Shown here one piece after another: positions 53,193-63,818 of a DNA stretch of 64,000 nucleotides (positions are counted from its first letter, which is position 1; each line of letters begins with the position of its first letter). Both the position numbers and the translations under genes were made by a program. Origin of the DNA: Candidatus Krumholzibacteriota bacterium (GTDB taxonomy: Bacteria; Krumholzibacteriota; Krumholzibacteriia; Krumholzibacteriales; Krumholzibacteriaceae); contig JAFGCX010000009.1 in assembly GCA_016932415.1 (NCBI GenBank), forward strand, positions 56,219-120,218, given 5' to 3'. The notes under the pieces are model-generated. The model made no database searches, was not told where the DNA came from, and was given only the letters and a program-made list of their open reading frames with translations.

Positions 53193-55211
53193 ATGTACAG
53201 AGTTCCAACTGACTTGGAGGGGCAGTATGACCGGTTTCTGAAAGGCAGGGGGGACATAGCCAGCTCCCTTGTTTTGCGTTTAAGGGAGAAAGGCTTTGCC
53301 GGAAGCGTTTCTGGAGCCTGGACTGCTCTTCTCCTTTCCAGAATATATACAGTTAAAGGCAGGCTTTCACTTGCAAGTTCATACCTGAAGCTGTCGCGTG
53401 ATCTGTTTCGCGCGCGCGATCATAGAATAATTCCTCTTGGGCTATGGATCAATAAAGCAATACTCCTGAGAATGCAGGGCGAGTACCTTAACGCCGCGCA
53501 TCTTTTGCGGCGGATCCATGTTCTTTCAATAAAAAACGGAACCTCCTTAATAGCTGCCAAGGCTGCTCTTAATCTGTCCGTGACTCTGGCGAGGTTATCC
53601 GATCTTAAAACCGCGGAGAGATATCTTGAGTACGCTTCCCTGAATTATTCCGTCCTCGAAGATGCCAGGGGAGTCGTCCGAGTGGAGATCGCGAGGGCTT
53701 TCATCGAGTCCATGACACAAAGACGCCGATTCGCTATCGACAGGCTTGAGGATCAGTTATCGATAAGAAGCAATGACGCTTTGATCAGAGAAAAGATTTG
53801 CGGCCAGCTTCTTATGACCGAGATCCTTCTAGAGGATGGGGAATACGAGAAAGCCGAAGTAGTTCTTCAAGAGATAAAAGGCAGTTTCGAGATTCTAGAT
53901 TGTCTCATACCGATGAAAATAAGATGGTTCAACCTGAAAGCAATACTGGAGGCTTCAACAGGCAGGATTGAATCAAGCCGAAGGTTCAGGAATGAGGGGA
54001 GGGTTAAAAGTGATGTTACCGGAATAGTTGACCCGCTGGCAGATTCGAAAAACATCATAGCCCATGGAAGATCAATGAATAGTAACATCTCATGGTACGG
54101 GAATCGACCACTCGTGGAAGGAGTAAGTAATTCGGTTAAAGAAGGATATGAAGTTGCTGGTTTGAACATTGGGCCGGATCGACCAATCGATCCTGGAACG
54201 AGGATTGAATTCATTTCAAAAAACATAAGGATCGATTCGATACTTAATAATATTCGGCGTTATTCGCCATTACACGTTCCAATACTCCTTGAAGGGGAAT
54301 CTGGTACGGGTAAGGAGATAGTCGCAAGATTGATCCACCACTGGAGTGGGCGGGGTAAATACCCTTTCATTCCCGTAAACAGTGCCGCCATTCCGGAAGA
54401 TCTTTTTGAAGCAGAGTTGTTCGGACATTCCAGGGGAGCATTCACTGGAGCAGTGCGCGAAAGGAAAGGGATCATCGCGGTGGCCGATAAGGGAACCGTA
54501 TTTCTTGATGAAATAGGTGAACTTGCTCCGCGCGTTCAGTCGAAGCTTTTAAGGTTGCTGGAGAATGGTGAATACATGTGCATCGGCGATCCAAAGGTCA
54601 GGTTCAATCATGCCAGAGTGATAGCGGCCACGAACAAAGATCTGGCGCGTTTGACAGATAATGGAGAGATGCGTAATGATTTTTATTATCGCATGTCAGC
54701 CAGTTCCTTTAAGCTGCCCGCACTCAGAGAGAGGGGTGATGATATATTCCTACTGTCTGAATACTTTCTTAATAAATATTCGGACCAACTCAAAATAGGA
54801 CCTTTTGAATTGAGTGATCCACTGAAAGAACTGCTCCGAAATTATTCCTGGCCGGGGAATGTCAGGGAACTGAAGAATGAACTACTATCAGCATCCATAA
54901 GGCGGGAAAAGGGAAAAATCAGGATCTCCGACCTGTCCTCAAGATTGATCCGCAGTATCAGCGAAGAACGGACTCGATTTGCGGTACGTCCCGAGGCTGG
55001 AATGACGGAAGAAGGTAGTAAGAGCATTTTTATGCCCGCGGAAAAGGTAACCGGCATCCTCGATCTGCGCATTCAGGAGATAGAAAAAAAAGAAATATTC
55101 GACGCGCTTGATTTTGCCGGAGGTAATAAATCGAAAGCGGCAAAAATCCTTGGGCTGAAGAGAACGACTTTTCTCTACCGGTTAAAGCGCCATGGCTTCG
55201 ATCTTCAATGA
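53193..55211 (+). CDS. TPR-sensor sigma-54-dependent transcriptional activator
   Basis: A 672-aa regulator. Residues 1 to about 270 are TPR-like helical pairs (KGRLSLASSYLKLSRDLF, LKTAERYLEYASLNYSVL). The AAA+ domain has Walker A LLEGESGTGKEIVARLI near residue 367, an intact GAFTGA loop (HSRGAFTGAVRERKG), Walker B GTVFLDEIGE and NVRELKNELLSA. The C-terminal Fis-type helix-turn-helix reads GGNKSKAAKILGLKRTTFLY. It has no receiver domain, so ligand or protein binding to the TPR part is the probable signal. Paralogous in layout to the gene at 59600. Confidence 0.9.
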   Translation: MYRVPTDLEGQYDRFLKGRGDIASSLVLRLREKGFAGSVSGAWTALLLSRIYTVKGRLSLASSYLKLSRDLFRARDHRIIPLGLWINKAILLRMQGEYLNAAHLLRRIHVLSIKNGTSLIAAKAALNLSVTLARLSDLKTAERYLEYASLNYSVLEDARGVVRVEIARAFIESMTQRRRFAIDRLEDQLSIRSNDALIREKICGQLLMTEILLEDGEYEKAEVVLQEIKGSFEILDCLIPMKIRWFNLKAILEASTGRIESSRRFRNEGRVKSDVTGIVDPLADSKNIIAHGRSMNSNISWYGNRPLVEGVSNSVKEGYEVAGLNIGPDRPIDPGTRIEFISKNIRIDSILNNIRRYSPLHVPILLEGESGTGKEIVARLIHHWSGRGKYPFIPVNSAAIPEDLFEAELFGHSRGAFTGAVRERKGIIAVADKGTVFLDEIGELAPRVQSKLLRLLENGEYMCIGDPKVRFNHARVIAATNKDLARLTDNGEMRNDFYYRMSASSFKLPALRERGDDIFLLSEYFLNKYSDQLKIGPFELSDPLKELLRNYSWPGNVRELKNELLSASIRREKGKIRISDLSSRLIRSISEERTRFAVRPEAGMTEEGSKSIFMPAEKVTGILDLRIQEIEKKEIFDALDFAGGNKSKAAKILGLKRTTFLYRLKRHGFDLQ

Positions 55212-58456: not shown

Positions 58457-59090
58457 GTTCCGGCTTTTTCTTGCAGGAAAATTCCCCGCGCTGTAAGGAT
58501 TCCCCAACTGATGCCTAGAATTTATTGTAATTTTCACCTGACAATCCTGAATCTGGGCAGGGATGAAACAGTACTTTGCCAGGCAAATTACCCGGGTTTT
58601 CGATATTACCTCGTCGTCTGCGTAAAGCAGTATGAATATAAAAGTTATATCACTGGCATCCTTTCTCAACGCAACTGATGTGCCATTTTCACCAAATTCT
58701 AAATTAAGCTGTAACATTAAGTAAATAAAGGTGATAGAGTGACGATCTCTTTGCATGGCTATTGTCATTCCTTGATGATTCGATGCTAATCGTAAATTAT
58801 AATTTACAACCTGTTTTGATGTTTGTTGATAACTCATTGTTGTAAAGATGATTATAAAACGGTAAACAAAAACTTGCAACTGTAAAATATATATTCCAGT
58901 ATTTGGTGTTGATGTGGCGGTAGCTTGAATATATCTATTTATTCTTTTTTTGGAATATTGATCCAGGTCCAAATGAGAACCGTATTGAGCAAATTATGTC
59001 GATCCAGGATCAGCAGCGGAATCGCTTTGTTGATAAAATTATGTTTGTCAGCGTAACATATAGTGAAAACATAAAATACAAGAAGTATGC
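58457..59090. other. AT-rich divergent regulatory region with palindrome
   Basis: About 630 bp between the histidine-kinase-like gene and the small exported protein. It is AT-rich, with many GTAAA/TTTAC words. A perfect 16-bp palindrome GTAAATTATAATTTAC occupies 58792-58807 and includes a minus-strand TATAAT. An open frame continuing the kinase upstream shows no protein-like composition. No other gene is seen. Confidence 0.45.
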
Positions 59091-59119
59091 TTGACAAGAT
59101 AATTTAAATCTGATAGAAT
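59091..59119 (+). promoter_or_regulatory. Strong sigma-70 promoter for small exported protein
   Basis: TTGACA (59091-59096), exactly 17 bp, TAGAAT (59114-59119), about 100 bp before the ATG at 59218; the leader may also serve the TPR activator that follows. Confidence 0.65.
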
Positions 59120-59217
59120 CGACAAAAGCGATCTGTTAACGCGACTGACTAGCTAGGGTAAAAGAACAAGGTACACTTTCTCATTGTGTGTTATCGACAA
59201 TGAGAGCCGAGGTGTGT

Positions 59218-59580
59218 ATGAAACACTTTTTCAGGAAGTGTGAAAACTTACTCTTTCTGGTTCTGGCCGCCGTTATCATTCTGTTCGCTCTTTCTCCGGC
59301 TGCCGAAGCCACATCCACGAAATATGACAGCAGCTTTTTATCTGATAATATGCTTAATGCAGATCCAGGGGAAGATCCGCACCTGAAAATAGATCCCGGT
59401 CTTCCGGAATACTATTTGATAGATTATCAGAGCCAGAGTTCGGCTGTTCAATCGAGTGGAACCCGACAGGAAATGCTCCGGGGGCATGACAGTAAAAGTC
59501 TATCTGTCAATCGGCATTCCCGCGTCAATCCTAAATTAAGGATTTTGCTGCAGGTATTTTTGCGGACACTGCGACACTAG
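59218..59580 (+). CDS. Small exported protein preceding TPR activator (120 aa)
   Basis: A 120-aa secreted protein with no recognised domain. A signal peptide (LLFLVLAAVIILFALSPA, cleavage probably after AAEA) is followed by an acidic, Ser/Asp-rich middle (NMLNADPGEDPHLKIDPG) and a basic amphipathic C-terminus (NPKLRILLQVFLRTLRH). ATG 59218 has GAGG five bases upstream. The next gene starts 19 bp after its stop, so the two are probably co-transcribed from the promoter at 59091. A peptide signal or cofactor for the TPR activator is an attractive but unproven idea. Confidence 0.68.
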   Translation: MKHFFRKCENLLFLVLAAVIILFALSPAAEATSTKYDSSFLSDNMLNADPGEDPHLKIDPGLPEYYLIDYQSQSSAVQSSGTRQEMLRGHDSKSLSVNRHSRVNPKLRILLQVFLRTLRH

Positions 59581-59599
59581 TTATACGGGAACCGGAGAA

Positions 59600-62182
59600 A
59601 TGCTCAAACAAAGACTCGCTATACAGAGACTTATAGTCGAAACAGCACAATTTCAGCATCGAGGCGAATATCGTCAGGCTTACCAGACAGCACGAGAGGC
59701 CGTATCTCTTGCAAATGAATCTTTCGCAAAAGATGAAGTATATCTCCGTGCCTTGATTTCTGCCGCCAAAAGTGCCTATTACCTGTCGCTTTTTGATGAT
59801 TCCACGGACTATCTCGATATTATCACCACTGTTACAAATAACTTGATTGGCGATACCGAAGCGGAAAATGGCCCTCATGGCAAGGAGACTGGTTCCTTTT
59901 GTGGAAAGGAAAATATCGCGGACTTCGATCTGTTACTGATCGAAGCTACATTGGTCAGGTCGAATGTTATGCGGCGCCTTGGTGATTACAGTGAAGCGAT
60001 TTCCCTTCTTAGCGGGGTCGATATAGATGCCTGCAGGCAATCGGCGCCATGGCTGGTGATCGAATTTCTATTGATAACCGGAGCATGCAGATATTATCTC
60101 GGACAGAATGAATCGGCTCGAGAAGCTCTTGAGTCCGCCCTTGGACTTACGACTTTCAGTGAAGACCCGCGAGCAAAATCAAAGATCCTTATAATGCTCG
60201 GACTTGTAGCACAATCGATGGGGTTTATCTCCAAAGCAGAAGATTATTTTTCAAGGGGCAGGGAAATATGCAGCGCGAAGGGTGATTTCTACGGCGAGGC
60301 AGCCGCGTTGCTAAATATCTCACTGACTTATTATCACAGGGGGTGGTTTGCCAGGGCTGAAAAATCGGTAAAGAGGGCAAAATCTCTCTTTGTAAAGGCT
60401 GAATGGGATCTGGGAGTCTGCCGGGCGATGCTGGTGCAGGGAAACATTCGGATGAAGCAGGGAGAGTATGATCCCGCTCGCAAGTTGTATTCAGATGCGT
60501 TCAAGATAGCCGACAGACTGGGTTTTCAAAGAGAACAGGCCCTTTCAAGGGGTCTTGTTGGTCTGGTATATCTTGAAAGAAGAGATTTTGTAAAAGCGGT
60601 AAAAGTTTTTACTGAAAGCCTTCATCAGGCCGACAGAATAGCCCCGGGAGGCGATATCTCCATCGAGATGCGAAGGAGGCTTGGAGAGGTGTTTGCAATG
60701 GAGAGAAAGCACAAAGAAGCGTCTGATTATCTGGAGGTGGCGCTATCCCTTGTAAAAAATACGGGGGATCTTCTGGAGGAAGGACTCATCAAGAGAGCGT
60801 TGGCTATCAACAAATCGATACAAGGGAATTCTGATCTGGCATGTGGATATTTCAACGACGCGATAGAATGTTTAAGAAACAGTGGTTCAACGTATGAATT
60901 AGCAAGGACGCATTTAATCTACGCAAGACTATTGACTGGTGAATTACTCTCCCCTGGTGAAATCTATCTTATCAATCCGGGTAAGAACCAACGTCAGGGA
61001 GGTTACCAGGAAAATCCTGGAATCGAACCTGATAATATAGACAAGGCGTTAAGCCTCCTGATGGAGGCTGGTCATCTTTTTTCAACAACCGATGCCGATC
61101 ATTTAAGATTTATCACTGACAGATTGATCGAAAAACTAATTGTAACAAAAAAAAGAAATGGATTGATACCGAGGCATTCCAGTAACACTGATGAGATCAT
61201 TACAATCAGTCATTCAAATGAATATATGATAGCTGAAAATCTTGCGGCAGTATCAGAGCAGATGTTCGAAATCTGGAGAAAGATACGGTTTGCTGCCACA
61301 TTTTCCAGGCCTGTTTTAATAACAGGTGAAACAGGTACGGGAAAGGAACTGGTTGCTAAACTAATACATGATTCAAGCCCAAGGGCGGACAAACCGTTTA
61401 TGGCCGTGAATTGCGCGGCAATCCCGGATCATCTTTTTGAGAGCGAATTTTTTGGCCACAGAAAAGGGTGTTTTACAGGGGCTCTTACAGATCGGCGTGG
61501 TATATTTGAAGAAGCTGACGGAGGAAGTATTTTTCTTGATGAAATAGGGGAATTGTCTACTTTGGAGCAAGTCAAGTTACTTCGAGTGCTACAGGAAAGA
61601 AAGGTGAAAAGAGTAGGGGAAAATAGCGAACGCTTTATAGATGTAAGAATAATATCAGCAACAAACAGGTTTCTGGAAGAGATGATAGCAGAATCGACTT
61701 TTCGAGATGATTTCTATTATAGGATCAACGCTGAGACGATCCATATTGAGCCTCTTAGAAAAAGACCAGAAGACATAATACCGTTGCTTACCTGGCGTTT
61801 ATCGTCAAACGGGAACAGTGAGCAATTCAATCCTGAAATACACATAGAGTCATCAGCACTAAGACTTTTACAGCAATATCACTGGCCAGGAAATGTGAGG
61901 GAACTGATTTCAGTTATCGATCGAATAGCCCATCTGAATGCTGGAGGGGTCATTCAATCGAATATGCTTCCCGAAAGGATCCGAAACGGAGGAGGACCAG
62001 TCAGCCAAGTCAATAGGGAATGCGATATTACAATTTGTGACAGGGATATGAGTATAAAATTGAACAAAGTCCTCAATATCTGCAGGGGCAACAAATCAGC
62101 GGCAGCAAAATGGCTCGGTATTTCCAGGGGAACATTCTACAAGCAACTCAGACAGGCAGGACTTGGTCACTTTATCAGGTGA
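59600..62182 (+). CDS. Large TPR-sensor sigma-54-type transcriptional activator
   Basis: An 860-aa regulator. Residues 1 to about 480 are TPR arrays (YRQAYQTAREAVSLANESFA, EYDPARKLYSDAFKIADRLG, HKEASDYLEVALSLVKN). AAA+: Walker [19 protein letters not shown] near residue 575, loop HRKGCFTGALTDRRG in which GAFTGA is GCFTGA, Walker [13 protein letters not shown], and NVRELISVIDRIAHL. Fis-type HTH at the end: CRGNKSAAAKWLGISRGTFY. Same architecture as the gene at 53193 but with a longer sensor. Preceded by a small exported protein. Confidence 0.9.
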   Translation: MLKQRLAIQRLIVETAQFQHRGEYRQAYQTAREAVSLANESFAKDEVYLRALISAAKSAYYLSLFDDSTDYLDIITTVTNNLIGDTEAENGPHGKETGSFCGKENIADFDLLLIEATLVRSNVMRRLGDYSEAISLLSGVDIDACRQSAPWLVIEFLLITGACRYYLGQNESAREALESALGLTTFSEDPRAKSKILIMLGLVAQSMGFISKAEDYFSRGREICSAKGDFYGEAAALLNISLTYYHRGWFARAEKSVKRAKSLFVKAEWDLGVCRAMLVQGNIRMKQGEYDPARKLYSDAFKIADRLGFQREQALSRGLVGLVYLERRDFVKAVKVFTESLHQADRIAPGGDISIEMRRRLGEVFAMERKHKEASDYLEVALSLVKNTGDLLEEGLIKRALAINKSIQGNSDLACGYFNDAIECLRNSGSTYELARTHLIYARLLTGELLSPGEIYLINPGKNQRQGGYQENPGIEPDNIDKALSLLMEAGHLFSTTDADHLRFITDRLIEKLIVTKKRNGLIPRHSSNTDEIITISHSNEYMIAENLAAVSEQMFEIWRKIRFAATFSRPVLITGETGTGKELVAKLIHDSSPRADKPFMAVNCAAIPDHLFESEFFGHRKGCFTGALTDRRGIFEEADGGSIFLDEIGELSTLEQVKLLRVLQERKVKRVGENSERFIDVRIISATNRFLEEMIAESTFRDDFYYRINAETIHIEPLRKRPEDIIPLLTWRLSSNGNSEQFNPEIHIESSALRLLQQYHWPGNVRELISVIDRIAHLNAGGVIQSNMLPERIRNGGGPVSQVNRECDITICDRDMSIKLNKVLNICRGNKSAAAKWLGISRGTFYKQLRQAGLGHFIR

Positions 62183-63072: not shown

Positions 63073-63131
63073 ATAGTCTGAGTTGATGGGGGCGAAGGTT
63101 ACAATACTTAATCGAATGAATGGAGAATGAA

Positions 63132-63818
63132 ATGAACATCGCCAGGAAAACAACATATGCTCTTCTGATCGCTTTAACTCTTGTCTTCATCTCTTGCTCA
63201 GAAGATCGAGAAAGTGGGAATTTTATATCACCTGGGGGAAACGAAGAAAACCTATATGAAGTAACGATCGATAATCCGGACGTAGAAGAAAGGCTGGTGA
63301 AAATAGAATCAGCAGAAAGCTATCCGCTTTTCAGTTATGTCGTCATCGAAAAAGGGTACAGGATAAACTTTGATCATGCCGCTCATTTTAAGGCATACGA
63401 TATTGCTACGGGTGATATTATTTTCTCTACAATGATTCCATGCACGATTCCGGGCGATAATAGCAGAATAGCAATGATCTACTATATTGCCGGGGAAGAG
63501 GGTTACATGGTGACTTCAGCTGAATATTTCGCGAATGAAGACTTTGCCATTGCCCATCCACTTGAAAATGCTGCGATACAGCATCTCAATACTAATTGGT
63601 CAGGAGGCAAGGAGGATGCGAAAAATCTGACTATACAGTTGGAAAACACATCAACGTACTGGAAATGTGTGGCCAAACGATTTTCTGCTGGTTGTCTCGG
63701 GTGCATGGTGAAATGCGCGTTTTCTGGACCTGGCTGGGGCGCCTGCACTCTTTCCTGCTGTGGAGGTGTGGCTATAGTATCAATGATCAGCTGTGCGTTT
63801 ACAGTGTTCGGATGGTGA
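63132..63818 (+). CDS. Lipoprotein with Cys-rich, bacteriocin-like C-terminus
   Basis: A 228-aa exported protein. A signal sequence (TTYALLIALTLVFISC) ends in a lipobox-like FISC, followed by SEDRESGN. The middle is a soluble alpha/beta-looking part (YEVTIDNPDVEERLVKIESA, AMIYYIAGEEGYMVTSAEYF). The last 50 residues carry eight cysteines, including GCLGCMVKCAF, GACTLSCCGGVA and MISCAF, among Gly and hydrophobics. This is like halocin-C8-type or leaderless disulfide/RiPP bacteriocin cores, though I cannot claim homology. ATG 63132 has GGAG six bases upstream. Its stop overlaps the next frame's GTG. Confidence 0.75.
   Translation: MNIARKTTYALLIALTLVFISCSEDRESGNFISPGGNEENLYEVTIDNPDVEERLVKIESAESYPLFSYVVIEKGYRINFDHAAHFKAYDIATGDIIFSTMIPCTIPGDNSRIAMIYYIAGEEGYMVTSAEYFANEDFAIAHPLENAAIQHLNTNWSGGKEDAKNLTIQLENTSTYWKCVAKRFSAGCLGCMVKCAFSGPGWGACTLSCCGGVAIVSMISCAFTVFGW

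Follow-up and report, generated by a model that had tools for sequence, protein, structure and literature searches.

A recurrent pair of a small exported protein and a TPR-AAA-Fis regulator in Candidatus Krumholzibacteriota: a candidate ligand-receptor module

Organization of the locus

What is the role of a small exported protein that is encoded directly in front of a regulator with a long TPR array? This question is raised by a gene pair on the forward strand of a 64,000-nucleotide stretch of DNA, referred to here as the window (G000:C9:56219-120218), which runs to the end of its contig. A sigma-70-type promoter with an extended −10 element (TG; 59091–59119, with TTGACA at 59091–59096, a 17-bp spacer and TAGAAT at 59114–59119) was recognized from the sequence and is kept in relatives that carry the same class of pair (class I, see below). 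It is followed immediately by a leader element of ~40 nt (59124–59162), which is conserved in an alignment of 16 upstream regions, and then by a 120-codon ORF (59218–59580) whose start is preceded by GAGGTGTGT. A junction of 19 nt (59581–59599), with GGGAACCGGAG ahead of the ATG, separates this ORF from the gene of an 860-residue regulator (59600–62182), in which Pfam identifies TPRs, Sigma54_activat, the AAA lid and a Fis HTH. Thus, all elements reported in a preliminary description of this DNA, namely a small ORF with a signal peptide, a sigma-70-type promoter and a regulator beginning 19 nt further on, are present. The same description took the TPR array to be the sole visible sensor of the regulator, and Pfam indeed finds no further sensor domain above its cut-off.

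Recurrence of the pair

The small protein and the TPR half of the regulator were searched separately against 58 relatives, and within the family the two sets of matches lie side by side. When the region upstream of each best regulator match was read, the class I pair was found to be adjacent in G001, G002, G006–G016 and G018, all of the same family, and also in G020, which belongs to another family of the order. The other members of the order offered no upstream sequence to read, in some cases because their contig begins at the regulator or within it. The class I regulators align over their full length and are 43–66% identical to the regulator of the window.

Directly in front of paralogous TPR regulators in the phylum lie genes for other small exported proteins, private to each regulator. 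The genome of the window contains three such pairs: the class I pair of the window itself (C9; motif PGEDPHL), a class II pair (C20; GEPGHDPF) and a class III pair (C34; GGDADDLADGR), the last of which is located behind an NtrC-type response-regulator gene. Partners in family f5 carry motifs of two types, GDPLDSNDY and EGDPGDGVL. In all classes, the partner has a signal peptide and, in its mature portion, a short acidic motif, and the C-termini differ between classes.

The pairing is largely confined to TPR regulators. A strict filter found a partner for 16 of 25 TPR regulators and for none of 36 others, and a second automatic count gave 40 of 55 and 5 of 68, respectively, the latter five including two misfiled class I members. 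A test for an export-like ORF with a motif was positive for 44 of 62 long TPR regulators, compared to 1 of 62 other sigma-54-type regulators. Of the 18 cases that this test missed, 13 were seen by eye to carry an upstream ORF, hidden by a shared reading frame, a frameshift or an upstream-extended frame, which brings the total to about 57 of the 62 long TPR regulators in Ca. Krumholzibacteriota (the part added by eye was not read blind). A relaxed filter without the motif flags 18 of 62 controls, and the motif-based count is therefore the one to rely on. No partner was found upstream of L147, L149 and L150, and two further loci (L124 and L159) are incomplete at their start. A small exported ORF linked to a TPR activator is thus conserved in relatives and repeated in paralogues, and the expectation that TPR-AAA-Fis genes would be repeatedly preceded by short secreted ORFs is borne out by about 57 of 62 cases against 1 of 62 controls.

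Hardly any solo copies of the small protein turned up in the searches of relatives. One small exported ORF in G022 (L151:6543-6797), with the motif EPSEDPHL, has no regulator behind it and is followed by transporter-like fragments; it is possibly a solo or displaced copy. Two pairs stand in tandem at L082 and L085 (G013, G016), with the class I pair followed directly by the class II pair. Records from GTDB genomes that are related to the small protein are mostly titled Candidatus Krumholzibacteriota or Krumholzibacteriia, and a contig scan with the small protein returned Krumholzibacteriota or loosely named bacteria, together with one short Acidobacteria match. Among the matches listed in a plasmid search, only the C-terminal AAA half was aligned, except for one match that reaches residue 329. 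No description of the pairing was found in the literature searched, and the papers searched on this uncultured phylum describe no such system. We regard the pair as a new and recurrent regulator-partner module, with a mechanism that we infer below.

The small exported protein

The class I partner of the window (120 residues) begins with a signal peptide (residues 1–31; 59218–59310, + strand), with AEA before the cleavage site and T after it. A basic n-region, a hydrophobic core and an A-x-A site can be read from the sequence, and the AF2 model places a helix at residues 3–24. The alanine at −1, Ala31, is nearly invariant (present in 90% or more of the 14 orthologues). Between variable flanks lies the acidic motif PGEDPHL (residues 50–56; 59365–59385, + strand), whose seven residues are invariant across the 14 class I orthologues (about 111–123 residues long); related acidic motifs occur in the paralogues. 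The C-terminal segment, SRVNPKLRILLQVFLRTLRH (59518–59577, + strand), is class-specific, with a predicted helix at residues 103–118 and low synonymous divergence, and the typical class I end reads SRVNxK....LQ..F.TL.R. The dN/dS values of 0.32–0.56 in four pairs indicate that the small ORF is coding and, together with the invariant PGEDPHL, that it is a real gene. The protein has no family match in Pfam or NCBIfam, and its AF2 model contains two helices only (pLDDT 57.9, pTM 0.23).

The basic C-terminus had been suggested to be the active piece of this protein. This end is conserved within class I only, and a C-terminal peptide as the common active piece is ruled out by its class-specific nature. 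Judging from the alignments, the element shared across classes is instead the acidic motif.

The TPR domain and the AAA output

The TPR superhelix of the regulator (residues 1–445; 59600–60934, + strand) was modeled by AF2 with a pLDDT of 84.9. VIA-align superposes it onto APC/C subunits with a Z of 27.2 (rmsd 3.8 over 433), onto Rap of phage phi3T with its pheromone with a Z of 27.1 (rmsd 4.2 over 347) and onto RapF with its peptide with a Z of 25.9 (rmsd 4.0 over 354), followed by domain III of MalT (Z 25.8, rmsd 3.6 over 359), NprR (Z 24.3, rmsd 4.7 over 350) and AimR (Z 22.6, rmsd 4.4 over 338). The model thus places the domain among peptide-receptor-type superhelices and agrees with its earlier likening to the TPR receptors of RRNPP systems; a shared fold proves no function. 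In the TPR register, conservation is 0.63 at concave positions and 0.61 at structural positions, compared to 0.49 at the others. The concave positions hold 213 basic and 101 acidic residues, and the domain is neutral overall. Of the conserved concave residues, Asn239, Tyr245, Arg275 and Asn282 (N239, Y245, R275, N282) are frequent across classes, and Glu356, Arg359, Arg360 and Arg399 (E356, R359, R360, R399) are nearly universal, being kept in classes I, II, III and f5.

Similar to sigma-54 enhancer-binding proteins of the NtrC/NifA class, the regulator of the window has a complete AAA domain with Walker A, Walker B and a GAFTGA-type loop (GCFTGA), as well as the Fis HTH, and sigma-54 (PF04552) is present in 58 of 58 genomes. 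It differs from that class in its TPR sensor with a private exported partner. Sigma-54 activation, the output expected in the preliminary description, does not seem essential to the module: f5 regulators with EGDPGDGVL partners have a deleted or disrupted GAFTGA loop and a degraded Walker B, whereas the partner and the arginine site stay. TPR-Fis regulators of f5 that retain the small exported partner but have a degenerate AAA domain were seen at L130, L133, L129, L122, L142, L139, L138, L141, L136, L146 and L144.

A second TPR sigma-54 activator of 672 residues is encoded in the window (53193–55211, + strand), in a synteny conserved in the family. No exported small ORF lies upstream of this gene, where the preliminary description had suggested that a similar one might be sought, and the E356/R359/R360/R399 signature is absent from its family.

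A proposed ligand-receptor pair

Conserved features of the regulator match those of its small protein, which suggests, at the level of sequence, that the regulator reads its partner. We propose tentatively, with belief and doubt close to balance, that the two genes encode a dedicated ligand-receptor pair, in which the TPR superhelix would bind the exported partner to set the AAA-Fis output. The acidic motif (PGEDPHL here) would most likely be seated in the arginine-lined concave TPR site, and binding would set the activity of the output with either sign, activation or repression. A precedent is found in LGN/Pins, whose TPRs hold a Glu-x-Glu/EPE motif by an invariant arginine (PMC3438535). By sequence, LGN is also the best natural match of the TPR array in the PDB after plant TONSOKU, with an E of about 1e-18. 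LGN/Pins-type TPRs bind Insc/NuMA peptides, and a similar mode of binding, acidic motif on arginine, may apply here. However, LGN and Pins are eukaryotic polarity proteins of unrelated function.

Both proteins would be made from one operon, often with translational coupling, so that the regulator would be born next to its ligand. Because the ligand carries a Sec signal, export would determine how much of it is free to meet the regulator. If the bound form is the un-exported precursor in the cytosol, the pair would be a sensor of export or of the envelope; if it is a processed peptide that an Opp-type importer has returned to the cell, the pair would be pheromone-like. The precursor route is slightly favored, as it needs no extra step. 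Carried to the whole phylum, it would turn these pairs into export sentinels: when export lags, each regulator would bind the acidic motif of its own reporter and act on transcription. We regard this generalization as unlikely. If true, the traffic state of one secreted protein could be sensed without a membrane sensor, a kinase or a pheromone.

Alternative explanations

The ligand-receptor reading is preferred mainly because the partner and the arginine site persist where the sigma-54 machinery of f5 has decayed. Several observations count against it. The arginine signature could be structural, or could reflect mere shared ancestry of the long TPR clade, and L149 and L150 keep it although no partner was found for them. 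The TPR fold is common to many other proteins, with APC/C subunits scoring as high as the peptide receptors, and the acidic motif might serve processing or a periplasmic role. Moreover, low synonymous divergence suggests that the small ORF has a role in cis, either alongside ligand binding or in its place. The ORF might be an export-monitoring leader, whose nascent chain, translation or export state controls translation of the regulator, as in the SecM, VemP, MifM and ApcA-type systems. In these, too, the regulated gene directly follows a small ORF with an export signal, the two are closely coupled and the 3′ end of the ORF is constrained. The size (80–200 residues), export signal and position of the ORF fit published search criteria for such leaders (PMC7897499), and its stop lies close to 20 nt from the regulator start in most class I members. 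In most f5 cases read, the small ORF overlaps the Shine-Dalgarno sequence and start codon of the regulator with its last codons. Synonymous divergence was compared within three close pairs: for the small ORF it is 0.37, 0.21 and 0.33, below that of every regulator window of equal size, and in the last 25 codons of this ORF it is 0.18, 0.13 and 0.02; low divergence is not seen in a fourth, more distant pair. A leader of this kind is a serious rival, if on balance an improbable one. The C-terminus is conserved within class I but contains no RAPP-like arrest motif, and the several classes have unrelated C-termini, unlike the SecM-type substrates. In f5, the ends are largely dictated by the overlapping Shine-Dalgarno sequence and start, which also explains the RAP-like ends (WHRAP) that had been considered as arrest motifs. 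A stable RNA structure at the class I junction was likewise discarded, since the folding stability of the junction RNA does not exceed that of its shuffled versions (z near 0, −1.3 to +1.3). The downstream gene encodes a TPR-AAA-Fis regulator rather than a protein-localization component such as Sec or YidC, and a leader would leave both the shared acidic motif and the TPR arginine site unexplained. Translational coupling is thus supported by the geometry, and a cis-acting leader role, alone or in addition to ligand binding, is possible.

The two products may also never meet: the small protein would then be a common effector, secreted or placed in the envelope, and would have only its operon in common with a regulator of envelope functions. 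Its export signal would fit such a role, as would the proposal that sigma-54 controls exterior functions in general (PMC3162934), and the class-specific hydrophobic C-terminal helix of the model could act at the membrane. The pairing, however, is specific to long TPR regulators and recurs in several of their paralogue classes, which differ in their partners and include regulators with a decayed ATPase. An effector would also be expected less readily given how few solo copies were found, and we judge this explanation the least probable of those considered.

The pheromone-like form of the ligand-receptor reading, in which a short peptide cut from the secreted protein would return through an oligopeptide permease and bind the TPRs, all in a diderm, would resemble the RRNPP systems (Rap, NprR, PlcR, PrgX, Rgg; also AimR). 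The preliminary description had likened the pair to these, and the likeness stands for the layout, the export and the TPR superhelix. As there, an exported small protein is recurrently encoded beside a cytoplasmic TPR protein of the same superhelix class, here with a conserved basic groove in the model. Sec-type export (as read from the sequence), a putative TPR receptor and direct adjacency agree with part of the five-point RRNPP signature (PMC10075063), Opp-type binding proteins (PF00496) occur in 57 of 58 genomes, with five in that of the window, and the seven-residue block is invariant between variable flanks. The likeness fails for the sizes, since the signature includes a propeptide of 10–100 residues and a receptor of 250–500 residues (PMC10075063), compared to 120 (111–123 in orthologues) and 860 residues here; across the module, partners have about 105–130 residues and receptors about 800–1040. 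The output is AAA-Fis instead of HTH_3 or a phosphatase, the phylum is diderm, what the partners have in common is an internal acidic motif instead of a C-terminal peptide, and any released peptide is putative. No processing site was identified in the small protein, and its motif stays invariant throughout the family and beyond it in the order, a constancy not expected of a species-specific pheromone. Thus, we consider a pheromone unlikely, and because of the sizes and the putative nature of peptide import and binding, we do not file the pair as RRNPP.

If the partners of the preferred ligand-receptor reading do bind, these genes would constitute a large set of receptor-ligand pairs with an RRNPP-like layout outside Gram-positive bacteria or, alternatively, a new way of sensing protein export. 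They would also provide a likely function for a small exported protein family that is missing from Pfam and NCBIfam. The proposal is testable, as it involves a short motif, a defined groove and several paralogous pairs suited to specificity swaps. The f5 subclass is useful in this respect, with its sigma-54 machinery gone while the pair remains.

Leader sequences and a possible target

Leader and junction sequences gave one chance-level match in Rfam (E 2). The class III leaders L153, L154, L179, L180, L184–L188 and L190 contain a conserved GGGTGTTCAGGGTTTGATGGGTG and, just ahead of the Shine-Dalgarno sequence, a small inverted repeat of varying sequence; the mean folding z of this hairpin is −0.67. 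A 6-bp pairing between the SRV codons and the junction (UUCCCG/CGGGAA), noticed by eye, breaks in several relatives and was not counted.

A sigma-54-type promoter match, TGGCACATCAGTTGCG, is located at 58670–58685 on the − strand and points toward the divergently oriented genes for a kinase and a GAF-type activator. Of 15 genomes, 8 have sites with at least 9 of 11 matches in this divergent region, compared to about 1 predicted from the site density of the window itself (8 in 64 kb, both strands). The site is perhaps a target of the regulator encoded at 59600–62182. Downstream of the regulator, an ORF of 232 codons (63120–63818, + strand) has no good sigma-54 promoter match in front of it and no match in Pfam or NCBIfam. 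Its product is lipoprotein-like with a Cys-rich C-terminus (CLGCMVKC...GACTLSCCGG), and homologues with 37–44% identity are encoded behind the same regulator in G008, G014, G009 and G011.
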